This document shows positions 21,295 through 59,856 of a DNA stretch of 64,000 bases, piece by piece. The first letter of the stretch is position 1; each line of letters starts with the position of its first letter. Location: positions 39,265 to 103,264 of IMG/VR virus record IMGVR_UViG_3300037504_000888; one strand, written 5' to 3'. The stretch comes from a virus. The notes under the pieces are model-generated. The model was not told the DNA's origin and made no database searches. It saw only the letters and a program-made list of their open reading frames with translations. The translations under genes and the position numbers were made by a program.

Positions 21295-21794
21295 TTGGCC
21301 TCACCCCAGGAATCTCCGACGCCCGCTTCGGCCTCCATGGGACAGGCAAGCTCGATGGGGAACGGGTAGGTCATGATCTCCTCGATGTCCTGCTTTGCGT
21401 CCTCAACGTGTTCTGCTGGCACCTCGAAGACCAGCTCGTCGTGGACCTGCAGCACGATGTGGCAGTCGTACCGTTTATCTAGTCCGTAGGCGGCGAGGTT
21501 GAGCTGAGCCATGCGACAGACATCCGCGGCCGAACCTTGGATCTGGGTATTTACCGCCAAGCGCTCACCCAGGGCCTGCTGGTCCTTGCGGTTGCTGTCG
21601 ATCATGGGAATGTTGCGGCGGCGGCCCATCACGGTGAAGGCGTATCCGTACTTCTTGCCCTCCTCGATGGCCTCCTTCATGAACCGCTCAACGGCAGGGT
21701 AAGTCTTCTTGTACTGTTCGATCTTGGCAATGGCGACGTCCTTGTCGACGCCGAGGTCTCTCGCCAACTTGCCAGGACCCATACCGTAGTTCAA
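21291..21794 (-). CDS. DNA polymerase I (family A), exon 2
   Basis: The C-terminal 167 residues of the polymerase, starting at LNYGMGPGKLA. It holds the second half of the motif B helix, the GRRRNIP stretch, the N-T-Q-I-Q-G-S-A region and motif C VLQVHDELVF, whose Asp and Glu bind the catalytic metals. It has no start codon of its own; the frame upstream of 21794 is intron sequence. Joined to exon 1 it restores a perfect motif B (R-x3-K-x3-FG-x2-YG) and a 664-residue polymerase. Confidence 0.9.
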   Translation of the reverse strand: MNYGMGPGKLARDLGVDKDVAIAKIEQYKKTYPAVERFMKEAIEEGKKYGYAFTVMGRRRNIPMIDSNRKDQQALGERLAVNTQIQGSAADVCRMAQLNLAAYGLDKRYDCHIVLQVHDELVFEVPAEHVEDAKQDIEEIMTYPFPIELACPMEAEAGVGDSWGEAK

Positions 21795-24021: not shown

Positions 24022-24072
24022 TCCACCTCCTATCGGGGAGGCCCGCCCCGGGTTCACCGGGGCGGACCACTG

Positions 24073-33009: not shown

Positions 33010-33135
33010 CTTCCTCCTGGGGGTTATGGGCCTGTCGCGTCACAGCGGTTATGCCAGCTTCCCTACGCTTTTTGATGCTGCTAGGTGTAGTCTTGCAGTT
33101 GTAGTTCTGCGCCACTAGGCTGTGCCGAGGTACCC
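33010..33135. promoter_or_regulatory. Divergent promoter region between replication and virion operons
   Basis: This 126-base gap separates genes read in opposite directions, so it must contain promoters for both. It holds GGTTATGGGC (from about 33022) and GGTTATGCCA (from 33047), a near-direct repeat 25 bases apart. GTTATGCC recurs at 43230 upstream of the RNA polymerase gene. A plausible sigma-70 box is not obvious, so a phage-specific promoter is possible. Assignment rests on position and the repeated octamer. Confidence 0.5.
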
Positions 33136-35406: not shown

Positions 35407-36676
35407 CATCGACCCCTTCATCCTTCGCTGCATGCACGACGAGGTCGTGAAGGTGGCCTTTCTCGGGTCGTTGGCGCGGCAGGGCGTGCAGGCCGTCGGT
35501 AAGGCGGGTGGCAAGCTGTTGGCCAACAAGGGTGTCCAGTCCGCGGGCCGGCATGTTGCGCAGTCTGTCGGTGACGTAGGGGCCGGGATGGGTGTCGGCG
35601 CTGCCTCTGGTGGTCTGATTGGTGCCGGTACGGAAGGTTACAAGGGGTACCAGGAAGAGGGCGCCTCGGGCGCCGTGTCCCGAGGACTGCAGGGCGGTAT
35701 GAGGGGGGCGGGCCTTGGTGCGGCTATGGGCGGTGTTGCGGGCCTGGCGTCGGGAGGTCGAGCCACCGTCTCGGAGCTAGGCAAGACGCTCACGAAGGGC
35801 AAGTACAACCCCCTGGGTACCGCCGTGCGAACTGGACAGCGTAACCTTCACAGCGTCACGGGGCTCGCCCCCGGGGGTGCCAAGCGGGGCACCAAGGAGT
35901 ACGCGAATGCGCTGCGGGGCATGAAGATGGAGGGCTGGAAAGCCAAGGGAACCGCACAGGCGGCAGCGAAGACTAGGCGGCAGGCCGAGCAGGCCGTTGC
36001 CAAGTCCAAGCGCAAGGTGCACCGCGGGGAGAAGAACCTCGAGAGGGCGATCAAGAGCGGGGACCCCGCTGCCATCCGCAAGGCCGAGAGGTCTCTGGCT
36101 CGTGATTCACGGGCTATCCACAAGGGTGAAAAGGCTGTGGGGAAAGCCACGGATGCGCTCGACCGGGCAAGCGAGGAGGCCAAGTCGGTCGAGGACGCCT
36201 GGCAGGCGGGCATGACAAGCCTCCCGGGCGTGGCTGGGGCCGTGAAGGAGAAGGGTGTCGGTTCGTTGTGGGAGCACGGCATCAAACCACAGACGAAGAC
36301 CCTCTCCGGTAAGGCCATGTTGGCAGCGCCGGTGGCCCTGGCCGCGCCCACGCTGGCCACGGAGGAGGACGAAGAGGGTCGAGGGCGCGCCGAGCGCTTC
36401 AGCAAGTCCCTGGTCGAGAACGCGGCCTACACGACCACGCCGATGATTCCCTTGGTCGGCAGCGACATTATGGGGCGCTCTATCGGTGCAGCGGCGGGGC
36501 TTGGGGGGCGCAACATCGACAAGCTCATCGGCGCCGTGAAGCGCAAGCCCACGAGCGAACTTGGGGAGTCCCCCGGTGTGCCCGCCACCGATGGTGACAG
36601 TGAGGGCGGAATTCCCGTGGAGCGTGTGGTGAGCAACGCAGCACAGGGCAAGCCTCCGGAGGACATGCTGGTATGA
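35399..36676 (+). CDS. Gly/Ala-rich, glycine-zipper-like virion protein
   Basis: From the ATG of MPDIDPFILR (425 residues); a longer frame starts inside the upstream gene. The N-terminus carries MHDEVVKVAF, matching the D-E-h-x-K-h-A motif of other virion proteins. Residues about 50-125 are Gly/Ala-rich with GxxxG-like spacing (GVGAASGGLIGAG), as in glycine zippers that insert into membranes. A Lys/Arg-rich helical stretch (about 180-260) follows. This pattern suits an ejected internal protein that crosses the host membrane during DNA entry. It overlaps the portal gene by four bases. Function inferred. Confidence 0.6.
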   Translation: MPDIDPFILRCMHDEVVKVAFLGSLARQGVQAVGKAGGKLLANKGVQSAGRHVAQSVGDVGAGMGVGAASGGLIGAGTEGYKGYQEEGASGAVSRGLQGGMRGAGLGAAMGGVAGLASGGRATVSELGKTLTKGKYNPLGTAVRTGQRNLHSVTGLAPGGAKRGTKEYANALRGMKMEGWKAKGTAQAAAKTRRQAEQAVAKSKRKVHRGEKNLERAIKSGDPAAIRKAERSLARDSRAIHKGEKAVGKATDALDRASEEAKSVEDAWQAGMTSLPGVAGAVKEKGVGSLWEHGIKPQTKTLSGKAMLAAPVALAAPTLATEEDEEGRGRAERFSKSLVENAAYTTTPMIPLVGSDIMGRSIGAAAGLGGRNIDKLIGAVKRKPTSELGESPGVPATDGDSEGGIPVERVVSNAAQGKPPEDMLV

Positions 36677-38757
36677 GCTTTTCGTTCGGTAACTTCGCTC
36701 TCGGTGGCCCCTCTAGCCCGATGCGCTTTGCGCAGGGGCAGACCCGCGGGCGCATTCAGGGCGGCGGTCAGATTCAGGGGATCAACTACCCGAGCCCGTT
36801 CTTCGACATTGCTCACACGTACCTGCCGACGACGGTCAAGCAGCTCTTCAAGTTCTGCCGCTACTACTTCCTCACCAACCCGCTCATCAACGCCGTCGTG
36901 ATGAAGATGAGCGAGTACCCGGTCACCGACATCGTAGTCGACCACGAGGACCCACAAGTGGTGACGAAGTGGACGGACTACCTTCACGATACTGTGCGCG
37001 TCCGCTCCTTCCAGGTCGAGTGTGGGCTTGACTACCACTGTTACGGCACCTGCCCGGTGTCGATGAGCTTTCCGTTCCAGAAGTACCTGACTTGTCGCAA
37101 CTGCGGGTTCAGTGAGCAGGCGAAGAAGACCCGCAACCGCTGGATCTACACTAGTCACGAGTTCCGCTTGACTTGCCCGAAGTGCGGGCACGTCGGCGCC
37201 GCCACACCAAAGGACTGGTACTACCGAGATGCCTCCAGCATCCGCCCGGTGCGCTGGAACGTCGAGGACATCGAAGTCAACTACAACGACATCACTGGCG
37301 AGAGCACGTACTTCTACAACATCCCCGCTCCGCTGAGAGCCGATATCACGCTCGGCAAGAAGGACGTTGTGGAGGGGATGCCGCAGATCTTCTTGCAGGC
37401 CATCCGTCAGCAGAAGGGCGTGGTTTTCTCGAAGAACAACTTTTTTGCCCTCAAACGCGCCACCCTCGCCTGGCAGGACCGTGGCTGGGGTATTCCGATG
37501 ATTCTGCCCGTCCTCAAGGACGCGTTCTACCTGCAGATCATGAAGAAGGCGCAGGAAGCCATTTTGCTTGAGCACATCGTGCCTCTACGTGTCATCTTTC
37601 CGCAGGCGGCGAGCGGCACGTCAGACCCATATACGACAATCAATCTACAGGATTGGCGTGACCAGATGGCGGCCGAGATTGCCCGCTGGCGCCACGACAA
37701 CAACTACATCCCCATCATGCCGCTGCCCATTGGTAACCAGAGCATCGGCGGCGACGGCAAGGCCTTGCTGCTCAGCGGCGAGATGATGCAGCTAGGCGAG
37801 CAGATCATCATGGGCTTGGGTGTTCCACGGGAGTTCCTGCAGGGTGGTCTGAGCTACGCGGGCACCAACGTCTCGATGCGCATGTTGGAGAATGCGTTCC
37901 TCAGCTACATCGGCCGACAGCGCCAGATGGTGAACTGGATGGTGGAGATGGCCGCTCACTTCATGGGGTGGCCGAAGGTCAACGTCCGTTTCAAGCCGTT
38001 CAAGATGGCGGACGACCTGCAGCGCAAGTCGTATCTGTTCCAGTTGAACCAAGCGCAGAAGATCTCCGACACCACACTGCTCGCCGACGCCGACCTCGAC
38101 ATCGAGGAGGAGAACGACATCATGGTGCGCGAGGCCGCGCGTCGTATCGAGGCTACGAAGAAGAGTCAGCTCGCCATGGCCGAGATTCAGGGCGAGAGCC
38201 AGATTATCATGCAGAAGATGCAGGCCAAGGCGCAACGGGCCATGCAGCAAGCTATGCAGCAGCCACCCGCGCCTGGCGAGCCCGGTGGTCCTCCCCCTCC
38301 GGATCACCCTGCTGCGGAGGTCGTGGGCCAAGGCGGGGGAGCCCCTGTGGTTGGCGGGCATGCCGACCCGCCCGCGCTGCCCGGGTCGGGTGGTGGAGGG
38401 GCGGCCAGGTCCGTACCTCAGGGGGCTGAAAGCCAGCTCAGCGCCGAGCAGGACTTGGGGGTAGAAGAGGGGCAGCCCGAGCAGATGCCTGGCGATGTCA
38501 TTCAGCTCGCCGAGGGCTACGCTGCCCAGATCCTGCAGCTTCCTGCGGAGCAGCAGGAGTTGGCGCTTCAGGCCATCGAGGCTCAGAGCCCCGACCTCTT
38601 CCAGCTAGTCAGCGAGTTCATGTCGCTGATGCAGAAGGGTACGGCGGGTCAGGCCATGATGCCGGGGGACGCCCAGGGTGGCCCGGAGACCGGTGGTGTC
38701 GACCAGCGTCCGTTACCCGAAGTGCTGCCGCCACGGCGTGAAGCGGCTCTAGTCTGA
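36673..38757 (+). CDS. Portal protein with inserted zinc ribbon
   Basis: A 694-residue protein. Portal-like features: an N-terminal region with NPLINAVVMKMSEYP, a wing and stem region rich in helices, and GVPREFLQGGLSYAG followed by a long helix with NAFLSYIGRQ (about 380-415), as in large phage portals. CRNC (about 141) and CPKC (about 168) form a zinc ribbon inserted in the wing, which is not a standard portal feature. The C-terminal 160 residues are Gln/Pro/Gly-rich. The dodecameric ring would sit at the capsid vertex and feed DNA from the terminase encoded at 56338-58134. Identification is by pattern only. Confidence 0.75.
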   Translation: MSFSFGNFALGGPSSPMRFAQGQTRGRIQGGGQIQGINYPSPFFDIAHTYLPTTVKQLFKFCRYYFLTNPLINAVVMKMSEYPVTDIVVDHEDPQVVTKWTDYLHDTVRVRSFQVECGLDYHCYGTCPVSMSFPFQKYLTCRNCGFSEQAKKTRNRWIYTSHEFRLTCPKCGHVGAATPKDWYYRDASSIRPVRWNVEDIEVNYNDITGESTYFYNIPAPLRADITLGKKDVVEGMPQIFLQAIRQQKGVVFSKNNFFALKRATLAWQDRGWGIPMILPVLKDAFYLQIMKKAQEAILLEHIVPLRVIFPQAASGTSDPYTTINLQDWRDQMAAEIARWRHDNNYIPIMPLPIGNQSIGGDGKALLLSGEMMQLGEQIIMGLGVPREFLQGGLSYAGTNVSMRMLENAFLSYIGRQRQMVNWMVEMAAHFMGWPKVNVRFKPFKMADDLQRKSYLFQLNQAQKISDTTLLADADLDIEEENDIMVREAARRIEATKKSQLAMAEIQGESQIIMQKMQAKAQRAMQQAMQQPPAPGEPGGPPPPDHPAAEVVGQGGGAPVVGGHADPPALPGSGGGGAARSVPQGAESQLSAEQDLGVEEGQPEQMPGDVIQLAEGYAAQILQLPAEQQELALQAIEAQSPDLFQLVSEFMSLMQKGTAGQAMMPGDAQGGPETGGVDQRPLPEVLPPRREAALV

Positions 38758-40235: not shown

Positions 40236-41464
40236 GATGGGCCCTTGTAGTACTTCAACAACTTCGAGTCGTACAACGTCGAGCAGACCTCTTCAGCGAC
40301 GTCGGCGACGTCCGGATCGTCGTGAGTGGTGTCGAGGTTGGCAGAGACGAGTTGCTGGGTGGGTTGGACCGTGATGTCGGCGAAGCCCGAGTTCACAATG
40401 GCGTCGTTCAGCAGGTTCCAGCAGGCCACGGCCTTGGCTGCTTGTTCCTTCTTGTCCTTGATGTCGGCGACGTGAGCTGCGCAGGAATTGAAAACTACTC
40501 GGGCAATATCGATGCGTTTGGGGATTGTCCAACCCTTCGTCAGTACATCGTGCGGTTTGGGCAGGTCGAACTTGCGGGCGTAGTTCGCCCATTCAACGGC
40601 CAAGCCCTTGCCGACTAACGCCTCGACGATGTCCGTCTCGAGACTGGGGTCGAAGCCCAGGCAACGAACGGCGCAAACGCCGTGGATGGCCCATTCCCAG
40701 GTGCGGTGTGATGGCCAAGCACCCGCAGCACGGGGGTCATCCGAGTCGGGTTGGTCGAACAGCTTGCTGCGCCTGTGCTCCTTGCCATCGGCATCTTTGA
40801 CGATGAACTGGCTGTTGTTCGCCATCATGAAGTCTTCAGCGAGTGCGGCGACGTTGGGCCATTCGAACGGCCAGTTCTGCTTGACGCGGTCCTCGCCGAC
40901 ACGGATGCCTTCGACGTTCGGCTGGTTGCGCTTCATGATGTAGTCGCACCACTCTCGCGGCGTCGGGGGGTCGTACTGGAAGTGGGCGACGCGGTTGGCC
41001 ATGGGGACCTCGAGGTCGTGGCCGTTGGCGGCTATGTCCGCTGGGTTCATCGCCATGACGATGCGGACGCCGACGGGCAGGACGTACTCACCAACAGTGC
41101 GCTCGTTGACGAACGAGAGCAGGGCGGCCTGTACGGCGGGGGGCGCTGTGGAAATCTCGTCGAGGTAGATGACCGCCACCTGGTCGTCCACCGCATGGAG
41201 AACCTGTGGCAGCGCGCAGCGGAGCATGAACCCCTCACTGGTGTTGGCAGGGAAACCACCGATATGCTCGGGGGTTTTCGTCGCTGCATAGATGGGGTAG
41301 CAGTTCATACCGGTCCAACTGACTACCGTTCTGATGCGCTTGCTCTTACCGGTGCCTGGGGCACCGATGTAGTTCGGGACGATTCCCCAGGGACACAACG
41401 GGTCGTTGGGGTCCTCAAGCGGCGTCAGAAGGCACGCCAGCAGACTCTGTTCGAACTTGCCCAT
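40232..41464 (-). CDS. MoxR-family AAA+ ATPase
   Basis: A 410-residue protein with a strong AGGAGGAGG ribosome site. Walker A is GAPGTGKSK (about 34-42), Walker B is VIYLDEIS, sensor 1 lies in VMAMNPADI, and a PMANRVAHF stretch fits the arginine-finger region. These identify the MoxR branch of AAA+ proteins, which remodel partner proteins and metal cofactor sites together with VWA proteins. The C-terminal 180 residues are longer than the usual lid. Its stop overlaps the start of the VWA gene, so the two are made together and probably form one complex. Confidence 0.85.
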   Translation of the reverse strand: MGKFEQSLLACLLTPLEDPNDPLCPWGIVPNYIGAPGTGKSKRIRTVVSWTGMNCYPIYAATKTPEHIGGFPANTSEGFMLRCALPQVLHAVDDQVAVIYLDEISTAPPAVQAALLSFVNERTVGEYVLPVGVRIVMAMNPADIAANGHDLEVPMANRVAHFQYDPPTPREWCDYIMKRNQPNVEGIRVGEDRVKQNWPFEWPNVAALAEDFMMANNSQFIVKDADGKEHRRSKLFDQPDSDDPRAAGAWPSHRTWEWAIHGVCAVRCLGFDPSLETDIVEALVGKGLAVEWANYARKFDLPKPHDVLTKGWTIPKRIDIARVVFNSCAAHVADIKDKKEQAAKAVACWNLLNDAIVNSGFADITVQPTQQLVSANLDTTHDDPDVADVAEEVCSTLYDSKLLKYYKGPS

Positions 41465-43170: not shown

Positions 43171-43291
43171 CAATTGGCTCGTCAATGGTTCTCCTTGCGA
43201 GCGAGGGTATACGCGCCCGTCGAAGCTGTTATGCCGGTGAATAGCGCGTTGTTGCCGGCCAGAAGCTGGCTGATGTACGCTATGGAGGCGT
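43171..43291 (+). promoter_or_regulatory. Probable promoter region of the RNA polymerase gene
   Basis: This is the non-coding 121 bases between the terminator and the RNA polymerase ATG. It contains GTTATGCC at 43230-43237, about 55 bases before the ATG, the same octamer found at 33048 about 80 bases before the other virion operon. The ATG is preceded by TATGGAGGCGT, a good ribosome site. No convincing -35/-10 pair was found by eye. Confidence 0.45.
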
Positions 43292-46200
43292 ATGGCCTAC
43301 ACTGATCCAAAAGAGGCGTTTGAGGACCTGAAGGCAGCTACCCTAGAGGGGCTGACTGCGAACTTTCCCATCACCGGGAAGAAGCAGACCATTGAGCTCG
43401 ACGGGCTCGAGGTGAAAGAGGATCACCTTGACCCTGACGATATCGAGACGCAGCACGAGGCCAAGGTGAAGGGAAAGAGCTGGGCTGCGCCGATCTACGG
43501 CAACCTGGTCATGCGCAATACCGCCACGGGTGATGTCGTCGACAGGAAGCGGGTGAAGCTCGGTGACGTCCCACATATGACGAAGCGCCACGCCTACATC
43601 GTCAACGGTGGAGAGTTCCAGGTCGACAACCAGTGGCGGCTCAAGCCTGGTGTATACGTCCGACGTACAAAGGGTGGTGTGGGTAGGGTCGAGTCGCAGT
43701 TCAACGTCCCCAATCGTTCTAACTTCGCTGTCACCTACGACCAGGACAAGCGCACGTTCAAGATGAAGCGGGGCAAGTCTGAGGCCATTCCGGTCTACCC
43801 GTTGATGAAAGAGCTTGGGGTCGACGACGACGAGCTCGAGAAGACGTGGGGTAAGGAGATCCTGGAGGCCAACAAGAGTGCTCGCGCCAAGACCAATGCG
43901 CTCGAGGCATTCTTCAAGGCCGACAAGAAGCGAGCGCCCAAAGACAAGGATGAAGCGCGACAGTACTTCCATCAGGTGATGCGGGAGTCCGAGCTGCGAA
44001 AGGACTCCACCGAGCTCACGATGGGCAAGTCGTTCGACCACATCAACGGCGACCTATTTAAGCGCGCCACCACCAAGATGATCAAGGTGATGAACGGTGA
44101 CGAGCAGGAAGATGAGCGAGACAGTCTGGTCTTCAAGGACCTCCGCACCGCCGCCGATCATGTGAAGGAGAGACTCACCTCCCCGAACGTACAGAAGGCC
44201 ATCAAGGCGCGCACTGACCGCAAGATAGACCAGTCTGACAGCATCCGGCAGGTCATCAAGGGCGAGCTCTTCAGCGCGCCGCTCAAGCAGACCTTCACCA
44301 GCAACGCGCTCTCCCGGGACGCCGACCAGGTCAACCCCGTGGAGATGCTGGCCTCGAGCTTCCAGACTACTGTCATGGGCGCCGGCGGCATCCAGAGTGA
44401 CCATACTCTTAGCGAGGAGGTGAAGCTCATCAGCCCCAGCCACCTGGGCTTCCTCGACCCGGTCAAGACCCCTGAGGGTGGACGAACAGGCGTGACGCTG
44501 CGGCTGCCGATGGGAGTGGAGAAGAGCAAGGATGGCCGCCCCGTCATTCCCGTGTACAACGTGAAGACCGGGAAAATGGAGCAGATCGATCCGCTTCAGT
44601 TCCACAAGTCTCGCGTCGTGCTCCCCGATCAGGTGAAGTGGGAGAAGGGTAAGCCAAAACCCATCGGTGAATCGGTGGTGATGAGCCAGAAAGGAAACGA
44701 GATCGAGGACGGCAGCTTCAACGACGCACAGTACGTGCTGACGAAGCCGAGCCAGATGTTCTCGATGACGACGAACCTCATCCCCTTTCTGGGGAACAAC
44801 TCCGGCAACCGCGCCACCTACGCGGCCACGCAGATGGAGCAGGCCATCAGTCTACAGGGGCGAGAAAAACCGCTGGTGCAGTCAGGCACAGGTAGTCGTG
44901 ACATCAAGACCTTCGAAGACTTCGTAGGCCGCAACAGCGCTCAGGTCTCGGACACTGATGGTGAGGTCATCGCCGTCAACAAGAAGCATGTCTCCATCAA
45001 GCGCCCCGATGGAACGGTGAAGAAGGTTGGGCTCTATAACAACTTCCCGCTCAACGACCAGAAGTCCGTGCTTACCAGCGAACCCAAGGTCAAAGTCGGT
45101 CAGAAGGTGAAGAAGGGAGACTTGGTCGCTGACAACAACTTCACCGAGGACGGGAGTCTGGCGCTCGGCACCAATCTCGTCTCGGGCTACGTGCCTTTCA
45201 AGGGGCTGAACTTCGAGGACGGTGTCGTCATTAGCGAGAGTGCTGCCAAGAAGATGAGTTCAGTCCATATGCACAAGCCGTCCATCACGGTAGGCAAGGA
45301 TCTCGTCACCGACGTCAAAAACTTCTACGTCAATCACCCTACGACGTTTACCAAGGACCAGAAGAACTTGCTTGGAGACGACGGCGTGGTGAAGGTGGGA
45401 CAGAAGGTCATGCCTGGTGACCCGTTGGTGCTTGCCAGTAAGCCCTACGAATCGAAGGGGTCGCTCAGTCTTCATAAGCTGCGCAAGAGCATGTCCAACC
45501 AGCACATGGACCAAAGCCTCACATGGAAGAGCGATTACCCAGGTGAGGTGGTGGGTGTACACAGGAACAAGAAGGGAGAGCTCAGCGTCCATGTGAAGAC
45601 CATCGAGCCGATGCAGATCGGCGATAAGATGACTGGACGCGCTGGCAACAAAGGCATCGTCACAGCAGTTCTGCCCGACTCTGAGATGCCACAGCTCAAG
45701 AAGGGCTTGCAGACGAATGTGGGTGCCAAGGACCTAGTCGGTAAGGAGCTGCAGAAGGATGCGGTCATCGGCGGCAAGAAGTACCAGGCCGGTACCAAGA
45801 TCGACAACAGCTTGGCGCAGGAGATGCGGCAGAAGGACCCGAACGCCGCGGTGGTCGTCAAACAGAACCTCGAGGTCGCCCTCAACCCCAGCGGCGTGCC
45901 TGGACGCATGAACATGGGCCAGGTGCTAGAGACGGCTGCGGCGAAGATCGCCAAGAAGACCGGCAAGCCCTACGTCGTCGAGAACTTCCGCAGCCACGAC
46001 GACGCCATCACCAAGGTTCAGAAGGAGTTGAAAGACCACGGTCTCGAGGATCAGGAGGATCTAGTCGACCCGGTGACGGGGCAGAGCCTCGGCAAGGCCC
46101 TGGTTGGACCGCAGCATCTCTTCAAGTTGAACTTCCAGATCGACAAGAAGGTCAGCGTTCGCTCCGGTATGCACCTTGAAGGTGCCGAGCCCGAGGGCTA

Positions 46201-49200
46201 CGACCCGTCTACGCTCATTCCGCAGGGCGGTGGCAAGACCGGCGGTCAGTCGATGGGTAACCTCGGGATGTACTCGTTGTTGGCCCACGGCGCCAAGTCG
46301 AACATCCGAGAGATGCAGACTTGGAAAAGCGAGGGCCCCGACCCGCGGGAGAAGTGGGACTCGCAGCACATTGATGTATGGAAGGCGATGATGACGGGCG
46401 AGGAACCCCCTCCACCCAAGAAGACCTTCGCGTTCCAGAAGTTCGAGGACATGATGCGCGCCAGCGGTATCAACATCGAGCGCAAGGGCAACAAGATGCA
46501 GCTCGTGCCCCTCACCGATGCGCAGGTACTAGAGATGTCTTCGGGCGAGGTAAAGAACTCGAACGCTGCAGTGGGTTGGGCAAAGGACAAGCAGGGAGAG
46601 CCCAAGCCCATCAAAGACGGCATCTTCGATCCACGCCTGACGGGTGGTCACGGTGGCAAGAAGTGGAGCCACATGACGCTGCCCGAGCCGATGCCGAATC
46701 CGGTTTTCGAAGGCGCCATTCAGAAGGTGCTGGGGTTGACTGAGAAGCAGTATGAGGCTGTCGTCACTGGCGAAAAGGGCATCAAGGACGGCAAGGTCGT
46801 CTCCGCCAATGAACGAGGGGCGAAGTTTGGGGGTGGTGCCATCGCCGGCATGCTCGAGAAGGTCGATCTCGACTCCGAGTTGAAGAGGGCCGAGAAGGAA
46901 CTGAAAGAGATGAAGTTGCCTGCGGACTTGGCACACCGTGATGGTACTCAGGCGGTTGACAAGACGGCGAAGAAGGTACGCATGCTACGGGCGCTGAAGT
47001 CCGCCGATATGAGTCCCAAGGACGCCTACACCATCAAGAACCTGCCGGTCATGCCCCCGATGATGCGCCCAGTGAGCTTCCTGCCCAGCGGCGACATGAG
47101 CGAGGCGGATATCAACGCGCTCTACACCCGTTTCGGCGGCATCGCTAAGAACATGAAGGACCCAGACTGGCGTGGTCTGCCGACGTCCAAGAAGAAAGAA
47201 GACTACTCCAAGCTTTACGACGGCATGCGAACGTTGATGGGGGTCGGTCCCAACTGGGATAATCGAGGTAAGCAGCCCAAGGGATTGCTTCTACAGATGG
47301 CCGGCAAGAATCCCAAGTCAGGCTATTTCCAGGATACACTGCTCAGTCGTAGGCAGGACATGACGATGCGGGGCACCATTACCCCCGAGCCGCACATGAG
47401 CATTGACGAGGTCGGCTTGCCCACGGCCAAAGCAATGGACTTGTTTCGCCCCTTCGTCGTCGAGAAGCTGCAGACCATGGGTCATGCAAGCTCGCCGCGT
47501 GAGGCGCTCGATATACTATCGAAGGAGCGCAAGAAGAAGCTTCCGAACAAGGCCGTGACCAAGGCGCTCGACTTGGTCATGGATGAGAGACCCGTCATGC
47601 TCAAGCGCGACCCGTCGCTACACAAACACAGCGTACAAGCATTTCGAGCGCGCCGTGCACCAGGCAAGGCCATCCAGATCCACCCATTGGTGACCGGCGG
47701 CTTCAACGCGGACTTCGATGGGGACACGATGGCGGCGTACGTGCCGGTGGGCAAGGACGCCGTCAAGGAAGCGTTCGACATGATGCCGTCGAAGAACATC
47801 TACAACGAGGCAAGCGGCAAGGTGATGTACACGCCGAGCCTCGATTCCAGTCTGGGTCTCTACAAACTAAGCCGGGTGACGGGAGACTCGAAGAAGGAGT
47901 TCAAGACCCACGCCGACCTACTGAAAGCGGCGCAGAAGGGTCAGGTCTCGATGACCGATACGGCTACAGTCGGCGGCAAGAAGACCACGGCTGGTCGCGT
48001 CATGCTCGCCAGCTCTGTGCCGGAGAAGATGTCCAATACCATGCTGCACGACCTCAACTTGAAGCTTGACAAGGGCGGCGTGAATCGCGTCTACACGCAG
48101 CTCGCCAAAGAGCACAAGGATGAGTTCGGAGACGCCGCTGGCAAGCTGATGAACTTGGGGTACGAGGCCAGCTTCGGTGCAGTGAAGGTTCAGAATCCCT
48201 CCACCAAGGGCACGGCCTTTGCTGTCGAGAAGGAGGGTGAGGACCCGAAGAAGCATGTGCAGTTCCTTCCCATGGGTGGTACGCACTCATTCGGGCTCAA
48301 GGACTTTTCCCCCGACAAGTCGGTGCGTGACCCGATCATCAAGACAACGCAAAAGAAGGTTGAAGACATTCAGAAGAAGACAGGTCTCTCCAAGAAGGAG
48401 AAGGATCGGCAGATTACCGAGCTCTGGTTCGATGCCACCGAGAAGATAGAGAAGAAACACGAGGAGAAGAGCAAGAGGAGTCCTAACAACCTGCAGCTGA
48501 TGAAGGAGGCTGGCGTCAAGCCGAGCCCTGACCAGTACCGCCAGCTCACACTGGCTCCGATGCTGCTCACCGACAGCGCCAACCGGGTACTGCCCAAGCC
48601 GGTGACGAAGAGCTACTCCGAGGGACTCGACGTGGGCTCATACTGGAATCAGATGAGCGGTGCTCGCCGCGGTAGCGTGTTGAAGGTGCAGGAGGTGCAG
48701 GACCCGGGCTACTTCACCAAGCGTCTGATGAACGTCAACATGGGTTCGCAGGTGTCTGCGGATGACTGCCAAACGGGGCGTGGCGTAGCGATGAACGTCG
48801 GCGACCAGAACATCTACGACCGTGAGTTGGCACAGGACATGAAGGTCAAAGGGGCGGTGCTCCCCAGGGGCACAACGTTGACTCCTGACGTTGTGCAGAC
48901 CATCAAAGCTGCAGACAAGAACGCGAACATCTTGGTGCGCAGCCCACTCAAGTGCCAGCACGATAGCGGTATCTGTCAGCATTGTGCGGGACGGTCCCCC
49001 GACGGTGACTACTACAAAAAGGGCACTAACGTTGGCGTGCTAGCGACGCAGGCGCTGGGTGAGCGGTCGACGCAGCTCACGCTAAAGGCGTTTCACTCCG
49101 GTGGGATCGCCAAACGCGACCAGGGCCTGGTCAACGACTTCAAACGCGTTCTCGAATTGACGGAGATGCCAAAAGACATCCCGAACCAGGCGACTGTAGC

Positions 49201-49915
49201 CATGAAAGGTGGGACTATCACGAAGGTCGAGAAGGACCCCACGGGCCTTCTCGTTCATGTCGGGGGGCGCAAGCACCTCATTCCCAAGGATCAGTTCGGC
49301 AACCCGTTGTGGGAGCCCCTGAAGGGCAAGGAGACGGCTGGGTGGAAGCCACCCAAGGTCGGTGACAAGGTGGCCCCAGGCCAAGTGTTGAGTGACCCCA
49401 GCCGTACCAACGTCAACGTGCGCGACCTCTACAAGGCCACCAACAGCATTGAGAAAGTGCAGAACCACATGGTGAATGAGCTGCACGGTATCTACGGCAA
49501 AGAAGGCGTGCGGCGCCAGCACGTCGAGCTCGCGGTGAAGAACATGTCGAATATCACACGGGTGGAAGACCCCGGAGACGACAGCGACGTGATCAAGGGC
49601 GACTTCGTGGCCACATCCAGCCTGCAGGGGAAAAACCGCGAGTTGGTGAAGAAGGGCAAGAAGCCCGTCATGCATAAGCCGGTGTTGAGAGGCATCGACG
49701 TGATGCCGCGCGAGGTGCAAGAAGACTGGATGGCGAAGATGAACCACAACCGCATCCGACAGACCGTCGCCGACGCAGCGACCTACGGACAGGCATCTGA
49801 GCTACATGGGACCAACCCCATCCCTGGTATGGCCTACGGTGCTGAGTTCGGCATGACTGAGAAGGACAAGCGCCTCAAGCCGCATCTCAAAGACGTGCCG
49901 GAGTGGGCTTACTGA
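43292..49915 (+). CDS. Single-chain fused beta/beta-prime DNA-dependent RNA polymerase
   Basis: A 2207-residue chain. Beta motifs in order: SPSHLGFLDPVKTPEG (about 380-396), LNFEDGVVISESA (about 640), GNKGIV (about 783) and GVPGRMNMGQ (about 868), then the beta C-terminal clamp ending at GINIERK. Beta-prime begins at once: EMSSGEVKNSN, DGIFDPR (about 1109), LPVMPPMMRP (about 1251), the catalytic NADFDGD (1472-1478), the bridge-helix region SGARRGSV (about 1786), zinc site 2 (DDC, then CQHDSGICQHC) and trigger-loop region STQLTLKAFHSGG (about 1926-1938). The first beta-prime zinc ribbon is missing. No alpha, omega or sigma gene is in the window. It is inferred to transcribe phage genes; its place among virion genes allows a packaged enzyme. 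Confidence 0.95.
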   Translation: MAYTDPKEAFEDLKAATLEGLTANFPITGKKQTIELDGLEVKEDHLDPDDIETQHEAKVKGKSWAAPIYGNLVMRNTATGDVVDRKRVKLGDVPHMTKRHAYIVNGGEFQVDNQWRLKPGVYVRRTKGGVGRVESQFNVPNRSNFAVTYDQDKRTFKMKRGKSEAIPVYPLMKELGVDDDELEKTWGKEILEANKSARAKTNALEAFFKADKKRAPKDKDEARQYFHQVMRESELRKDSTELTMGKSFDHINGDLFKRATTKMIKVMNGDEQEDERDSLVFKDLRTAADHVKERLTSPNVQKAIKARTDRKIDQSDSIRQVIKGELFSAPLKQTFTSNALSRDADQVNPVEMLASSFQTTVMGAGGIQSDHTLSEEVKLISPSHLGFLDPVKTPEGGRTGVTLRLPMGVEKSKDGRPVIPVYNVKTGKMEQIDPLQFHKSRVVLPDQVKWEKGKPKPIGESVVMSQKGNEIEDGSFNDAQYVLTKPSQMFSMTTNLIPFLGNNSGNRATYAATQMEQAISLQGREKPLVQSGTGSRDIKTFEDFVGRNSAQVSDTDGEVIAVNKKHVSIKRPDGTVKKVGLYNNFPLNDQKSVLTSEPKVKVGQKVKKGDLVADNNFTEDGSLALGTNLVSGYVPFKGLNFEDGVVISESAAKKMSSVHMHKPSITVGKDLVTDVKNFYVNHPTTFTKDQKNLLGDDGVVKVGQKVMPGDPLVLASKPYESKGSLSLHKLRKSMSNQHMDQSLTWKSDYPGEVVGVHRNKKGELSVHVKTIEPMQIGDKMTGRAGNKGIVTAVLPDSEMPQLKKGLQTNVGAKDLVGKELQKDAVIGGKKYQAGTKIDNSLAQEMRQKDPNAAVVVKQNLEVALNPSGVPGRMNMGQVLETAAAKIAKKTGKPYVVENFRSHDDAITKVQKELKDHGLEDQEDLVDPVTGQSLGKALVGPQHLFKLNFQIDKKVSVRSGMHLEGAEPEGYDPSTLIPQGGGKTGGQSMGNLGMYSLLAHGAKSNIREMQTWKSEGPDPREKWDSQHIDVWKAMMTGEEPPPPKKTFAFQKFEDMMRASGINIERKGNKMQLVPLTDAQVLEMSSGEVKNSNAAVGWAKDKQGEPKPIKDGIFDPRLTGGHGGKKWSHMTLPEPMPNPVFEGAIQKVLGLTEKQYEAVVTGEKGIKDGKVVSANERGAKFGGGAIAGMLEKVDLDSELKRAEKELKEMKLPADLAHRDGTQAVDKTAKKVRMLRALKSADMSPKDAYTIKNLPVMPPMMRPVSFLPSGDMSEADINALYTRFGGIAKNMKDPDWRGLPTSKKKEDYSKLYDGMRTLMGVGPNWDNRGKQPKGLLLQMAGKNPKSGYFQDTLLSRRQDMTMRGTITPEPHMSIDEVGLPTAKAMDLFRPFVVEKLQTMGHASSPREALDILSKERKKKLPNKAVTKALDLVMDERPVMLKRDPSLHKHSVQAFRARRAPGKAIQIHPLVTGGFNADFDGDTMAAYVPVGKDAVKEAFDMMPSKNIYNEASGKVMYTPSLDSSLGLYKLSRVTGDSKKEFKTHADLLKAAQKGQVSMTDTATVGGKKTTAGRVMLASSVPEKMSNTMLHDLNLKLDKGGVNRVYTQLAKEHKDEFGDAAGKLMNLGYEASFGAVKVQNPSTKGTAFAVEKEGEDPKKHVQFLPMGGTHSFGLKDFSPDKSVRDPIIKTTQKKVEDIQKKTGLSKKEKDRQITELWFDATEKIEKKHEEKSKRSPNNLQLMKEAGVKPSPDQYRQLTLAPMLLTDSANRVLPKPVTKSYSEGLDVGSYWNQMSGARRGSVLKVQEVQDPGYFTKRLMNVNMGSQVSADDCQTGRGVAMNVGDQNIYDRELAQDMKVKGAVLPRGTTLTPDVVQTIKAADKNANILVRSPLKCQHDSGICQHCAGRSPDGDYYKKGTNVGVLATQALGERSTQLTLKAFHSGGIAKRDQGLVNDFKRVLELTEMPKDIPNQATVAMKGGTITKVEKDPTGLLVHVGGRKHLIPKDQFGNPLWEPLKGKETAGWKPPKVGDKVAPGQVLSDPSRTNVNVRDLYKATNSIEKVQNHMVNELHGIYGKEGVRRQHVELAVKNMSNITRVEDPGDDSDVIKGDFVATSSLQGKNRELVKKGKKPVMHKPVLRGIDVMPREVQEDWMAKMNHNRIRQTVADAATYGQASELHGTNPIPGMAYGAEFGMTEKDKRLKPHLKDVPEWAY

Positions 49916-49916
49916 T

Positions 49917-51170
49917 ATGGCACTGAAGGACGTCGACGACCAAGCCAAGAATCCGCTCGCGCGGACTGGCATGCGCACCTCGTGGACTCAACCCGAGGGC
50001 GGGATGCCAGCTTACATCCACGAGGCACGGGTCATCGACTTCAACCTGTCCAACTGGACCGTCGACGTGCGCACCCAGTTCGACCAGAAGTTCTTCCCCA
50101 ACGTGCAGGTGGCGAGCCCCTACCTTCATCCCAATCGGGGCGAGGGGCTCTACGTCATGCCCGAGGTCAACTCCAAGTGCCTCATCGCCATCCCCAGTGA
50201 TGGGCCGCCTCCGTTCGTGCTGGCGTTCATCATGCCCACCGAGAAGACGGACGACATTGACACCGAGGAGGTGCAGGGAAAGAGCGGGATGGGCAACTCC
50301 ACCTTCGCGGGGGGCCGCCCTCGAGCGAAACCAGGAGACATCTACTTGAAGGGGCGTGACGGGCAGTTCATCGTTCTGCACCGTGGGGGTGTGCTGCAAG
50401 TGGGGTCGACCGAGCTGGCGCAGCGCCTCTACATCCCGCTAGGAAACATCGTCACGGACATCAGCCAGAACTACGAGCACCACAACACGGGCGGCACCAT
50501 CAACTGGGGCATCAGCTCGAGCTCGACGGATGAGCAGCCGGAGACGGAGTACTTCCAGACCTTCAGGCTCTACGCCAACGATGAGTTCTCCGATGTGAAG
50601 GTCGCCATCGGCAGGGTGAATCAGCCGCAGCCTGAGCCTTCGGGGGACGACTACGAGCTCAGCCGCAATACCCAGTTCGGACTCGGTGAGAGCGGCCCCA
50701 TCTGCGTCGAGCTCGCCGTCACCCCGCAGGGCTACGAGACGGCCAGTGGCGCGCCGAAGACCAATGGCGCGGCCACGAACCTGAAGTTCCAGTTCGACAC
50801 CCTCGGAAATGGCTTCATGCGGGCCGAAGGGAACATGAACATTCGCATCAAGAAGAAACTACATCTGAAAGCGGATGACGATCTGACCGTCACCAGCGAC
50901 GGCATCCTCACACTCTCAGCACCGAAGTCGAAGATGCGCTTAGAGGCCAAAGACGGCATCGAGATCTTGTCGAAGGGTGGGTCCATTGCCTTGAACGGTG
51001 GCGGTACTCCGGTCGCTGCTGTAGGGTCAGCGGTGGATGTTCTCGTCACGCTGCCCATCCCCATCGCGACGCCGGCGGGTCCCGGTACCATCGTTCCTGG
51101 TCCCAATGCACGCCTTACCGGCATCATCGCCAATGGTTCATCGACCGTACAAGTGCCGAAGCCGGGGTGA
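49917..51170 (+). CDS. Baseplate central spike-like protein (gp5/gpV-type OB fold)
   Basis: A 417-residue protein. Residues about 35-105 (ARVIDFNLSNWTVDVRT, PNVQVASPY, GEGLYVMPEV, KCLIAIPSDG) have the strand pattern of the OB fold found in gpV/gp5/VgrG spike proteins. The C-terminal part (about 300-417) has repeated short strands (LHLKADDDLTVTSDGILTLS) typical of a triple beta-helix spike shaft, ending in a Gly/Pro-rich tip. No lysozyme domain is seen. It follows the RNA polymerase stop by one base. It implies a tail with a membrane-piercing spike, most likely contractile. Confidence 0.7.
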   Translation: MALKDVDDQAKNPLARTGMRTSWTQPEGGMPAYIHEARVIDFNLSNWTVDVRTQFDQKFFPNVQVASPYLHPNRGEGLYVMPEVNSKCLIAIPSDGPPPFVLAFIMPTEKTDDIDTEEVQGKSGMGNSTFAGGRPRAKPGDIYLKGRDGQFIVLHRGGVLQVGSTELAQRLYIPLGNIVTDISQNYEHHNTGGTINWGISSSSTDEQPETEYFQTFRLYANDEFSDVKVAIGRVNQPQPEPSGDDYELSRNTQFGLGESGPICVELAVTPQGYETASGAPKTNGAATNLKFQFDTLGNGFMRAEGNMNIRIKKKLHLKADDDLTVTSDGILTLSAPKSKMRLEAKDGIEILSKGGSIALNGGGTPVAAVGSAVDVLVTLPIPIATPAGPGTIVPGPNARLTGIIANGSSTVQVPKPG

Positions 51171-56083: not shown

Positions 56084-56339
56084 TGAAGACCAACTGCTTC
56101 TTCTTGTAGTGAAAGTCCACGGCTTTCCACCCACATCGTTTCAGGAACTGCCGAATGAACCCGTTGACGTACTTCGGTGTCCCCTTGGGCAGAGGCGCTC
56201 GCATCGACAGAAGGACCTGCACCTGATGCTCCGTGGGGTTGACGCCGTAACCCCCGGTGAAGTGGTCGCCGCCGGCGGACAACCAAGGCCACACCTGAGC
56301 CAGAGCCTCGCTGGGGTCTGCCGTTTCTTGGGGGTCCAT
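55953..56339 (-). CDS. Probable minus-strand gene inside the late plus-strand block
   Basis: A 128-residue frame with protein-like composition: a folded stretch (GFIRQFLKRCGWKAVDFHY, KKKQLVFTMKP) and a basic Arg/Glu-rich tail. It fills what would otherwise be a 250-base gap between plus-strand genes. Its ATG overlaps the terminase ATG on the other strand within CATG (56337-56340), and no ribosome site precedes it. An internal GTG near 56294 with GAGG upstream is an alternative. It could be a small regulator or inhibitor. Moderate doubt remains about reality. Confidence 0.5.
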   Translation of the reverse strand: MDPQETADPSEALAQVWPWLSAGGDHFTGGYGVNPTEHQVQVLLSMRAPLPKGTPKYVNGFIRQFLKRCGWKAVDFHYKKKQLVFTMKPWPLHKQEAARLRSEEFRQEARRNREEKRLDRATPRTPAP

Positions 56340-58134
56340 GGGTGAAGCTGCGTTGAAGATGACTCCCGAGGATCTCGAGGAGGACTACGACGATTCTTGG
56401 TACGAGGATGAGGTCTGGCGGCCTGAGTCCGAGGTCGAAGAGGAGCCCATCGTACTCGAGCGGGCTCGGGACAAGCTACCAGAGATCCCCAAAATTCTAC
56501 CAAGCCAGTTCACATCTGGGGTCTTCCAGATGCCCAAGCCGGACGGCACCGGCTACGCGCCCTTCTCCTTTGAGGGGCGCCGGCACCTGCAACGCATCTA
56601 CGACACACCGGCGCGCAAGGTGCTCATGTGCTGCGGGCGGCAGGTCGAGAAGTCCACACTGCTCGGGAACCTCAGCCTCGCCTACATGACGCTTGTCGTC
56701 GGTCTGCGCATCCTATTCGTCTCGCCCTCCAGCACGCAGACGAAGACGTTCAGCAACGACCGCATCAAGGAGCCCATCGAGACAAGCCCACTGTTGACGC
56801 GGTTCACAACGAGCATGCTGACGAAGAACATCTTCGAGAAGCAGTTCGTGAACCGGTCGATGATTACCATGCGGTACGCGTACCTCAACGCGGATCGAAC
56901 TCGTGGCATCCCAGCGTGGCAGCTCTTCCTCGATGAGATTCAGGACATCCTGCGGGACAACATCCCGGTCATCGAGCACTGTCTTAGCCACGCCCCAGAG
57001 ATGTGGCGACGACAAGTGTACTCCGGCACACCGAAGAGCCTCGACAACATCATTGAGGACTATCGCGCCAATCAAAGCACGCAGGGAGAGTGGGTCGTTC
57101 CTTGTGAGGGTTGTAGACACTGGAACGTGTTGGGCGAAAAGAACATCGGCAAAAAGGGTGTCATCTGCGCCAAGTGCGGCAAGCCCATCGACCCGCAGGG
57201 ACCACGAGCACAGTGGGCCTGGATGGTCAAACCCGACCCTACGGACCCGAACAAGGTGCCCTGGGAGAGCTACCGCATACCTCAGCTCATGGTGCCGTGG
57301 AAGCTCAGCGAGGAGGGCTGGGCTGAGGTCCTTTACGGTTACGAGAACTACCCACGCGCCAAGTTCATGAACGAGACTCTCGGCATCTCGTTCGAGTCTG
57401 GGATGCGCCCCATCACCACAGCGCAGATGCGGGACGCTTGTGGTGAGCACTCGATGAACGACCTAGAGACGGTGCGCACCCTTAGCTTGTCGCAGCCTTT
57501 TTTCATGGGGGTCGACTGGGGTACAGGCGACAACGCTTATACCGTCTGCGTGATTGCTACCTACGTCGAGAACCGCTTCCGCGTTCTGTTCGCTCACCGC
57601 TTCGTAGGGGAAGAATCCGACCCTAACGTTCAGTTGAAGAAGCTCGTCGACCTCGGCAGACACTTCAACATTGCCATATTCGGCTGTGACTACGGCTTCG
57701 GCTTTGGGATGAACCACCACCTGGTGCGCGCCTTCGGTGCGCCTCGCGTGATGAAGTACCAGTACATGGGACAACTCGCGAAGAAGGTGTTGTGGGACGA
57801 GAAAATGCAGCGCTGGAAGGCGCACCGCACCGAGGTGATGAGCGCCATCTTCGAGGCGATTAAGAAGAAGAAGTGCGAGTTTCCCAAGTGGGAGGAGTTC
57901 AAGGCGCCCTACGCCAAGGACTTCACCAACATCTACTCCGAGTACAACGAACGGCTGCGCATCGTGCAGTACGACCACAAGCCAGGCAATCCTGACGACA
58001 CGTTCCACGCGTTCACTTACGCTTGGCTCGCCTCGATGATTGTGATACCCCGCCCAGACATCATCTCTCCCTCGAAGGAGGATGAGGACGGGAGACCGAT
58101 CAGCCCTTACTCGGGCCCCGTCGACCAGGGTTAG
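56338..58134 (+). CDS. Terminase large subunit
   Basis: A 598-residue DNA-packaging motor protein. The Walker A-like CCGRQVEKST (about 97-106) is the GRQ-type P-loop found in some terminases, and Walker B is LFLDEIQD (about 197). The RNase H-like nuclease shows its acidic residues in GVDWGTGD (about 392), GCDYGFG (about 449) and DDTFHAFTYAW (about 553). A zinc ribbon (CEGC, CAKCG; about 256-281) is inserted between the domains, as in lambda gpA-type enzymes. It cuts and pumps DNA through the portal. The start is uncertain: ATG at 56338 overlaps the divergent start of the minus-strand gene, and an ATG at 56359 is possible. Confidence 0.9.
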   Translation: MGEAALKMTPEDLEEDYDDSWYEDEVWRPESEVEEEPIVLERARDKLPEIPKILPSQFTSGVFQMPKPDGTGYAPFSFEGRRHLQRIYDTPARKVLMCCGRQVEKSTLLGNLSLAYMTLVVGLRILFVSPSSTQTKTFSNDRIKEPIETSPLLTRFTTSMLTKNIFEKQFVNRSMITMRYAYLNADRTRGIPAWQLFLDEIQDILRDNIPVIEHCLSHAPEMWRRQVYSGTPKSLDNIIEDYRANQSTQGEWVVPCEGCRHWNVLGEKNIGKKGVICAKCGKPIDPQGPRAQWAWMVKPDPTDPNKVPWESYRIPQLMVPWKLSEEGWAEVLYGYENYPRAKFMNETLGISFESGMRPITTAQMRDACGEHSMNDLETVRTLSLSQPFFMGVDWGTGDNAYTVCVIATYVENRFRVLFAHRFVGEESDPNVQLKKLVDLGRHFNIAIFGCDYGFGFGMNHHLVRAFGAPRVMKYQYMGQLAKKVLWDEKMQRWKAHRTEVMSAIFEAIKKKKCEFPKWEEFKAPYAKDFTNIYSEYNERLRIVQYDHKPGNPDDTFHAFTYAWLASMIVIPRPDIISPSKEDEDGRPISPYSGPVDQG

Positions 58135-58858: not shown

Positions 58859-58868
58859 ATAGGCCTAT
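58859..58868. promoter_or_regulatory. Operator-like palindrome between divergent genes
   Basis: ATAGGCCTAT is a perfect 10-bp palindrome in the 20-base gap between the HTH regulator ATG and the plus-strand ATG at 58867, overlapping the latter. Its place fits a binding site for the HTH protein acting on both genes. This is inferred from position and symmetry only. Confidence 0.35.
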
Positions 58869-59856
58869 GACCCAGTACGATCTACCTCCTCAGGCTGCTC
58901 TTCAGCAATCTTCAGCACGTCCGCTGTCCGGTGAAGAGCTCGAGACGTATGGCAAACACGCCGCCGCGAAGTACGCATGTGGCGAGTGCTGCAGCCTCAA
59001 TGCGGCCGTTGTCGAGACGGTCAAACAAGCGGGTCTGAGTCCCGAGCAGGTGAAGCGGGTCTGCGAGTTCGCCAACACCGATGCGTTCCTCAAGGAGTTC
59101 AAGAAGGAAGCGGCTTCTTCGAAGTACGTCATGTTCGAGAGCGGCCCCGCCGACTTCAGCGAGGTCCTCAAGGACCTGAACGATGGCGGCGGTGGTAGTG
59201 TCTTCGACCGCGGTAATGCGGACTACGCCCACGCCCCAGCCGTGGTGAAGATTGGCGCTGCTAGGCAGCAGTCGATGGAGAAGACTGCTAGCGCCGACCA
59301 GAAGTCTTCTCGTGCCGATGAGGTTCTCGCCGACGCCTTTGCCATCGACAAGACAGCAGAGCCACTCCCCTACGCCAACTCCCTACAAGATGTCCACGAG
59401 CTCCAAGACAAGCTCTCGACGGCGCGCGACAGCGCAACCGCGGAGTTGTCCGCCTTGGAGACCATCATGCTGGACGCCACCGAGGACTTGTACCAACGCG
59501 TCAAGCAGGCCGCCCTCGAAGGGATGCCGCTCGGTCACGTGGTTCAGGCGTGGGACCAGGCGCTGGCGCCAAATCCGGCGTTGGTGAAGGCGGCCTTTGC
59601 CCAGATCGGCCCCCGGCTGCAGGAAGAGGGGGTCTTCAATAGCCTCGACGCCCTAGGTCAGAGCCTCACCAAGACGGCGGGCCTCCGGGCGATCGTCGAT
59701 GAGACTCATCCCATCGTGTCGGCCTTTGGGGCCTACTGCGAGGGAACCGAAAAGCTGGCGATGCTCCGTGCCGCCAGGCAGGAGTTCATCGACGGGATTA
59801 ACCAACTGACTCTGTTCGGAAAGTCCGTCAACGAACACTACCCGGAGCAAGTGTGA
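58867..59856 (+). CDS. Virion protein with K-T-A motifs
   Basis: A 329-residue, mostly helical protein. A cysteine pair (ACGECC, about 38) lies near the N-terminus. Sites MEKTASA, DKTAEPL, TKTAGL and EKLAML fit the h-K-[TL]-A pattern abundant in this block. No membrane segment or enzyme motif is seen. It overlaps the next gene (ATGATGA), which in turn touches the prohead-protease-like gene, so a head protein such as a scaffold, internal or decoration component is likely. Family not recognised. Confidence 0.6.
   Translation: MTQYDLPPQAALQQSSARPLSGEELETYGKHAAAKYACGECCSLNAAVVETVKQAGLSPEQVKRVCEFANTDAFLKEFKKEAASSKYVMFESGPADFSEVLKDLNDGGGGSVFDRGNADYAHAPAVVKIGAARQQSMEKTASADQKSSRADEVLADAFAIDKTAEPLPYANSLQDVHELQDKLSTARDSATAELSALETIMLDATEDLYQRVKQAALEGMPLGHVVQAWDQALAPNPALVKAAFAQIGPRLQEEGVFNSLDALGQSLTKTAGLRAIVDETHPIVSAFGAYCEGTEKLAMLRAARQEFIDGINQLTLFGKSVNEHYPEQV

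Follow-up and report, generated by a model that had tools for sequence, protein, structure and literature searches.

Introduction

Two-barrel RNA polymerases encoded by phages come in several forms. Those of phiKZ, AR9 and PBS1 lack alpha and omega, as does the enzyme described here, and one set is packaged in the virion, but their core is in four or five pieces and each phage has two enzymes (PMC7598289, PMC13282480). In the enzymes of crAss-like phage phi14:2 (gp66), YonO and P23-45 (gp64/gp96), some of which are virion enzymes, both barrels lie in one polypeptide; these proteins are highly diverged, and PMC10770324 places them apart from the clade of cellular polymerases. Complete cellular-type beta and beta-prime encoded by a phage are already known since 2020 from the mReC phages (Weinheimer and Aylward 2020), which form a clade apart from cells and whose enzyme is described as beta and beta-prime subunits, a join being unmentioned (PMC7481178). 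Cobetia phage Carin-5, Yersinia phage YerA41, Rhizobium phage RHph_TM30 and Vibrio phage Va2 also have cellular-type beta and/or beta-prime, in their case as separate subunit genes that keep the zinc ribbon; the beta-prime gene precedes beta in Carin-5 and YerA41, and in Carin-5 a sigma gene adjoins the polymerase genes.

Closest to the locus reported here are Salmonella phage Arash (gp206 + gp216, OQ632216) and Vibrio phages D69, D148 and D181, in which the beta::beta-prime join has the same position, the zinc ribbon is lost and a portal gene lies upstream. They are about 30% identical to the present enzyme and differ in that beta-prime breaks off past the catalytic barrel, so that the polymerase consists of two chains, or of three in related contigs; D181 and D148 additionally have an endonuclease gene inserted within beta. 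The earlier note on this DNA had allowed that well-described phages with the same fusion might already exist; cultured phages with the join had indeed been sequenced, but their proteins are annotated “subunit beta” or “hypothetical protein” and the join is unremarked. We found no description of a covalent beta::beta-prime join in a phage in the literature, although an earlier mention is possible, given that PMC10770324 speaks of unnamed cellular-clade “derivatives with fused DPBB domains”.

In bacteria, natural rpoB-rpoC fusions occur in Helicobacter and Wolbachia. Order and joining site are as in the phage chain; unlike it, the bacterial enzymes retain alpha, omega and the zinc ribbon.

Results

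The window, meaning the whole stretch of DNA analysed (64,000 nucleotides), is the final 64 kb of a 103,264-bp virus contig, which ends 14 kb past the polymerase gene. Its features are reported in Table 1. As had been proposed from the letters alone, complete beta and beta-prime occupy a single open frame, beginning with ATG and containing no internal stop. Along the chain, Pfam domains Rpb2_3, Rpb2_6 and Rpb1_1 to Rpb1_5 follow one another in bacterial order, the matches to Rpb1_1, Rpb1_3 and Rpb1_4 being under their Pfam cut-offs. Direct matches to bacterial beta and beta-prime, in Pfam and in the PDB, set the enzyme apart from the crAss/YonO type. It is likewise distinct from the phiKZ/AR9 type, the chain being unsplit and a single beta-prime place being present in each of 21 relatives; one beta gene was found in the window's own, incomplete, record.

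Table 1. Positions of features in the window
Feature	Position	Strand	Basis
SNF2-type helicase (homologue of Arash virion helicase gp217) fused to an inorganic pyrophosphatase domain	3645..6521	+	
Promoter-like element TTGC-N19-TAGGCT, 14 nt before first gene of portal gene run	33093..33121	+	
Portal protein homologue (Arash gp204, D69 VPHD69_0259), upstream neighbour of polymerase	36673..38757	+	homology
Promoter-like element TTGC-N20-TACGCT, 10 nt before polymerase start codon	43252..43281	+	
Single-chain RNA polymerase, beta joined to beta-prime, 2,207 aa	43292..49915	+	frame, domains, structure model
Beta part, residues 1-1075 (cut at 1075 conventional)	43292..46516	+	domains, trees, alignment
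Beta catalytic barrel motif GDKMTGRAGNKG, K779 and K787, intact	45620..45655	+	
Join, GINIERK (beta end) to SSGEVKNSN (beta-prime start)	46466..46564	+	motif positions, alignment
Beta-prime part, residues 1076-2207, stop included; without N-terminal zinc ribbon	46517..49915	+	domains, alignment
Clamp-helices region, residues about 1270-1320	47099..47251	+	alignment
Active-site motif NADFDGD, residues 1472-1478 (D1474, D1476, D1478)	47705..47725	+	motif position, alignment
Second zinc site, C1826, C1888, C1895, C1898	48767..48985	+	motif position, alignment
Trigger loop start, LKAFHSGG (H1935)	49082..49105	+	motif position, alignment
Conserved neighbour, no assigned function, starting 2 nt past polymerase stop; in 13 of 14 IMG/VR loci	49917..51170	+	
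Large terminase subunit (Pfam PF05876), homologous to Arash gp1	56338..58134	+	
Homologue of Arash virion protein gp220	58867..59856	+	

Almost no linker had been claimed between the two halves, and this was borne out: GINIERK (residues 1059-1065) and SSGEVKNSN (residues 1083-1091) are separated by 17 residues, part of which already aligns to the bacterial beta-prime N-terminus. Structure prediction across the join was confident (pLDDT 87, pTM 0.80), and the model matches bacterial RNA polymerase. The catalytic motifs are present, all residues tested being intact; K779, K787, D1474, D1476, D1478, R1439 and H1935 do not vary across 68 relatives. The whole protein holds four cysteines, all in the second zinc site, and by this count and by alignment the N-terminal beta-prime zinc ribbon is absent. 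The clamp helices, which in bacteria are the sigma-binding element, are diverged in the phage chain yet recognisable by alignment. On these sequence features, the large tailed phage encodes, in one polypeptide, a complete DNA-dependent RNA polymerase of cellular (bacterial-like) type.

Of the 80 nearest IMG/VR contigs, 70 encode the complete enzyme as a single frame; in the other 10 it is truncated by a contig end and by nothing else. A scan of GTDB genomes returned solely bacterial rpoB/rpoC, at 24-30% identity, and no close copy. That the gene might come from the host, or from an assembly join of two genes, had been named beforehand as what could undo the finding. The recurrence of the same single frame in 70 contigs, the viral neighbours and the GTDB matches, bacterial genes at 24-30% only, rule out both, and what probability we leave to either is negligible. 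The one-frame beta/beta-prime fusion in a phage is confirmed as real.

Polymerase trees (fast IQ-TREE with SH-aLRT, 32 taxa; FastTree, 50 taxa) placed the window protein within a joined phage clade, separate from all bacteria sampled, and in this the enzyme differs from the bacterial rpoB-rpoC fusions; the separate-gene enzymes of Carin-5, YerA41, RHph_TM30 and Va2 also fall outside it. The clade comprises two groups that are monophyletic together: the single-chain enzymes, and their sisters from Arash, D69 and others, which keep the join and have beta-prime broken further on, the enzyme then being in two or three chains. Loss of the N-terminal beta-prime zinc ribbon is common to both. No cultured phage of the single-chain clade was found. 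Profile search, structure prediction and phylogeny thus upheld the cellular-type fusion but not the idea of an isolated oddity: the fused enzyme is not unique, because many relatives have the same one, and to judge by these it is one member of a widespread lineage.

The earlier note had seen no alpha, omega or sigma. For alpha no match above cut-off was obtained, and omega was not found. For sigma the statement holds in the window's own contig, where neither of two Pfam models nor a profile of the family detected one, but not in its relatives, since 19 of the 21 encode a divergent sigma-70-family protein; the two without a match may both be incomplete. The family matches SigA at 1e-13, Sigma70_r3 was detected in 5 of 5 proteins, and Arash and D69 encode a sigma of the same gp10 family. 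Seven records of the clade to which the window belongs have the sigma gene 71-79 kb downstream of the polymerase. Absence of sigma from the window is expected, since the contig stops 14 kb past the polymerase gene, and the “missing” sigma of this phage probably lies past that end.

The polymerase gene is flanked by portal and terminase genes, within a structural gene cluster. Searching the contig for promoters with general k-mers yielded codon-like repeats only, and the window gave no hit in Rfam or tRNA scans.

Discussion

We propose, with a probability of about 0.72, that this is a virion-packaged, sigma-dependent, one-chain polymerase without alpha or omega that starts phage transcription on DNA entry. 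What we infer for the window phage is an active enzyme, which would be packaged in the virion together with a phage sigma-70-family factor; both would be ejected with the DNA at infection, and phage genes would be transcribed in a sigma-dependent manner, independently of the host polymerase. Newly made core would probably serve later promoters too, in some relatives together with a second sigma, since each relative has one such core only, so that one core may act both early and late. In bacteria alpha nucleates the assembly of beta and beta-prime, and it may be unnecessary here because the two are covalently joined.

Packaging is suggested by Arash, whose polymerase is a two-chain enzyme only about 30% identical to that of the window: both polymerase chains (gp206, gp216) and the sigma gp10 were detected in particles by mass spectrometry (PMC10585845). 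Arash itself probably uses the packaged enzyme to switch on its genes at infection. It could instead be that the polymerase is not a virion protein, being made during infection for late genes only while host polymerase reads the early genes, and that the Arash signal is carry-over. The gene does sit in a structural, presumably late, gene run, the element upstream of it keeps a sigma-70-like TAnnnT core that the host holoenzyme might read, and the Arash authors themselves raise carry-over of abundant infection proteins (PMC10585845). However, gp206 outnumbered the major capsid protein in spectra (3516 vs 1333, PMC10585845) and the sigma was detected as well, so that we hold late-only expression to be unlikely, though worth keeping in mind. 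The very high abundance in Arash particles would also suit a protein that is no longer an active polymerase and serves chiefly as a structural or injected component of the virion, but this is very improbable given that none of the catalytic residues tested varies in 68 divergent relatives.

About as unlikely as late-only expression is a polymerase that does not use the phage sigma, recognising promoters alone or via another phage protein, the sigma redirecting host polymerase. The phiKZ and AR9 polymerases, with their own specificity subunits, provide the model, many phages encode sigmas acting on host polymerase (PMC13282480), and divergence of the clamp-helices region points the same way. 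Against it, that region is still recognisable, the sigma is kept in 19 of 21 polymerase-encoding relatives, and Arash particles contain it together with the polymerase. Sigma dependence stays part of our preferred reading. A broader model, which we put forward tentatively and at less than even odds, is that one joined core with exchangeable phage sigmas runs the whole programme (a small packaged sigma immediate-early, a second sigma late), replacing the two phiKZ-like polymerases, and that stepwise break-up into one, two and three chains from a single joined ancestor is a model for the split polymerases of jumbo phages.

Like mReC, the window, from a tailed-phage contig, encodes complete beta and beta-prime (tested by Pfam) with the NADxDGD motif, and it is possible that the two belong to the same lineage. 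All 17 mReC terminases with Pfam hits are PF03237, and the mReC capsid family is PF07068 (PMC7481178). The sole match of the window terminase at E <= 0.01 is PF05876, not the PF03237 of mReC. PF07068 had no match in the 21 relatives, the controls being likewise without one, and the expected place of the capsid gene lies past the end of the window contig; the Arash capsid protein gave a weak PF05065 match.

If working as inferred, the enzyme would be among the simplest cellular-type polymerases known, one chain plus sigma, without alpha or omega, and the roles of alpha, omega and the N-terminal zinc ribbon become directly testable with it. Its expression and study should be easy, as it is a single polypeptide with a candidate sigma. 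Since the sister clade has two- and three-chain versions with the join kept, polymerase break-up is traceable step by step. In the rifampicin pocket, positions 526, 529 and 531 (E. coli numbering) are mostly altered, from which rifampicin-tolerant transcription is predicted.

A complete RNA polymerase in one reading frame

The source record is a virus contig of 103,264 bp, of which the window covers 39,265-103,264. The earlier note had described beta and beta-prime as fused in a single polypeptide, in bacterial domain order and with almost no linker, and each of these points was borne out. The frame is open throughout, the motifs named lie where they were claimed, and the Pfam beta and beta-prime domains keep the bacterial order, with Rpb1_1, Rpb1_3 and Rpb1_4 scoring below cut-off. 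At the join, GINIERK aligns with the C-terminal end of beta (...SLGINIELEDE in Salmonella) and DAQVLEMSSGEV with the start of beta-prime (...DMIRSWSFGEV in bacteria); the join adds no more than about a dozen residues to the bacterial ends.

Features of the window discussed in the text
Feature	Position	Strand	Remark
SNF2-type helicase joined to inorganic pyrophosphatase domain	3645-6521		helicase part homologous to Arash gp217
Two neighbouring frames, each matching family A DNA polymerase	21291-24057	-
DUF2201 metallopeptidase/VWA-like protein and AAA ATPase pair	38826-41464	-	between portal and polymerase genes
Promoter-like TTGC-N20-TACGCT	43252-43281		10 nt upstream of polymerase start codon
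Single-chain RNA polymerase	43292-49915	+	open from ATG to stop, 2,207 residues
Homologue of Arash virion protein gp222	60692-63688		split in frame by intein with LAGLIDADG endonuclease

Across 68 relatives the beta-barrel lysines K779 and K787, the NADFDGD aspartates D1474, D1476 and D1478, R1439 and the trigger-loop histidine H1935 never vary. The only four cysteines of the protein (C1826, C1888, C1895, C1898) all belong to the second zinc site, and each is conserved in 65 to 67 of the 68; a clamp-helices region is discernible. Bacterial beta-prime chains were the top solved structures in a sequence search (E 6e-95). Structure prediction, proposed as a check, was run on residues 560-1700, spanning both barrels and the join (AlphaFold, pLDDT 87, pTM 0.80). 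The best PDB match of this model was again bacterial beta-prime, and the top matches in a viral model library cover about half of it.

Assembly artefact and host contamination

Scanning IMG/VR with the window protein returned 14 relatives, and a profile scan at least 536, the best 80 of which were examined. The whole enzyme lies in one frame in 70 of these 80 (67 of 2,023-2,244 aa, and three of 2,437-2,517 aa with in-frame inserts); the other 10 are single frames ended by contig edges, and none of the 80 is broken at the beta/beta-prime boundary. An assembly join of two genes, which the earlier note named as a possible refutation together with host DNA, was rejected on these grounds. Host contamination was rejected as well: the best 80 GTDB matches were bacterial rpoB/rpoC only, at 24-30% identity, and the gene is flanked by portal, terminase and head-region homologues, most of them also conserved in relatives.

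Split relatives and phylogeny

The nearest deposited phages, at about 30% identity, are Salmonella phage Arash and Vibrio phages D69, D148 and D181. Arash gp206 (1,525 aa) joins beta to beta-prime as the window protein does, but ends just beyond the catalytic barrel, the rest of beta-prime being a separate chain, gp216 (606 aa); D69 has the same layout. Beta is interrupted by a homing-endonuclease gene in D181 (record L019), where the pieces may either be spliced or act as separate chains, and, by its annotation, in D148. Forty Arash-like IMG/VR relatives, some cut by contig ends, showed two-chain (∼1,525 + ∼610 aa) or three-chain (∼1,130 + ∼385 + ∼615 aa) layouts. The join is kept even in the three-chain form, since chain one extends ∼100 residues into beta-prime.

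Trees of the beta and beta-prime parts, also suggested earlier, compared the joined enzymes with bacteria (20 in FastTree, 9 in IQ-TREE) and separate-subunit phages only. The single-chain clade (S, with the window enzyme) and the Arash-like clade (A) were each monophyletic, and together formed one clade (SH-aLRT 100 in IQ-TREE; FastTree 0.996 for beta-prime, 1.000 for beta). The beta-prime N-terminal zinc ribbon is absent from the window protein and from clade A, whereas phages Carin-5, YerA41, RHph_TM30 and Va2 and bacteria keep it. Given the monophyly of S and A, a single ancestor is the most likely source of both the join and the ribbon loss; this ancestor may have been fully single-chain or may already have had a separate beta-prime C-terminus. 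At rifampicin positions 526, 529 and 531 both clades mostly carry changed residues, which predicts rifampicin-tolerant transcription.

Natural rpoB-rpoC fusions are known in bacteria, and the bacterial MAG record L139 (JAOAAW010000156.1, isolate SKW160), with rpoB and rpoC motifs in one 2,610-aa frame, is a further candidate. OR844998.1 (L263), an unannotated "Staphylococcus phage", was placed with bacteria and is probably host DNA, and the same may hold for further OR84xxxx phage records among the matches that lack annotation.

Possible sigma partners and a promoter-like element

In line with the earlier note, searches of the window's record gave neither sigma nor alpha nor omega. The proposed search for sigma-like partners succeeded in relatives: 19 of 21 encode a protein (∼230-260 aa) of the Arash gp10 family. 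A PDB profile search matched this family to bacterial SigA (1e-13), and each of the five members tested matched Sigma70_r3. In seven S-type records, one counted as circular, the gene follows the polymerase at a distance of 71-79 kb downstream, whereas the window contig ends 14 kb past it, which suggests why no sigma is seen there. A second sigma-like gene is present in some relatives: gp196 in Arash, and one each in D69 and relative G005. Searches of the 21 relatives gave no omega, and no alpha hit reached the cut-off; beta-prime is encoded at a single place in every one of them.

The promoter-like element recurs upstream of the polymerase in near relatives, in 21 of 29 regions in a loose form of constant 30 nt (random rate 0.7%) and in 13 of 29 in a strict form (0.3%), rates that are descriptive because the motif was derived by inspection of the same sequences. 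The sole further site in the contig lies 14 nt upstream of the gene at 33136, the first of the portal gene run; two sites are not above chance, yet both stand at gene-run starts.

Probable virion packaging and proposed mechanism

In the Arash proteome gp206 was the top-detected protein (3,516 spectra, 128 unique peptides, against 1,333 spectra for the major capsid protein), and gp216, sigma gp10 and helicase gp217 were likewise present; the authors considered early transcription or carry-over (PMC10585845). Their main text does not mention gp196. The gp217 gene adjoins that of gp216, the polymerase C-terminal chain.

By homology with Arash only, the window polymerase is most likely packaged, and the enzyme as a whole most likely a virion-packaged, sigma-dependent single chain. 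It would travel in the virion and transcribe with sigma, the covalent join making alpha-driven assembly unnecessary. Whereas phiKZ-like phages have two polymerases, the window's relatives have one core per genome, which, combined with several sigmas, may do the work of both.

Complete beta and beta-prime are already known in phages of the mReC group (PMC7481178); the window phage may belong to that group. It shows the polymerase features used to define mReC, its terminase does not match the mReC terminase family, and the mReC capsid model hit neither the 21 relatives nor the controls. Highly diverged single-chain phage polymerases are also known. For the cellular-type joined enzyme as a widespread phage lineage, no description was found in the literature searched, though the unnamed "derivatives with fused DPBB domains" mentioned in PMC10770324 may be an earlier reference to it.

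Inserts and other loci

In one relative (L015:10001-19747, IMGVR_UViG_3300037483_000453) the polymerase frame is 3,249 aa long and holds three intein-like inserts, all in frame and at conserved positions: DPVRTPE in beta, the NADFDGD active site and the trigger loop. Two of these inserts have homing-endonuclease domains. Other relatives carry in-frame inserts at NADFDGD (L076, weak intein match), close to it (L058) or within beta GNKG (L086, LAGLIDADG domain). The DUF2201/VWA-like and AAA ATPase pair occupies the portal-polymerase interval in 9 of the 14 IMG/VR relatives, and was not found in Arash or in the D69 stretch searched. Beside the two window frames that match family A DNA polymerase, the DNA polymerase of Arash is likewise in two genes (gp152 and gp154).
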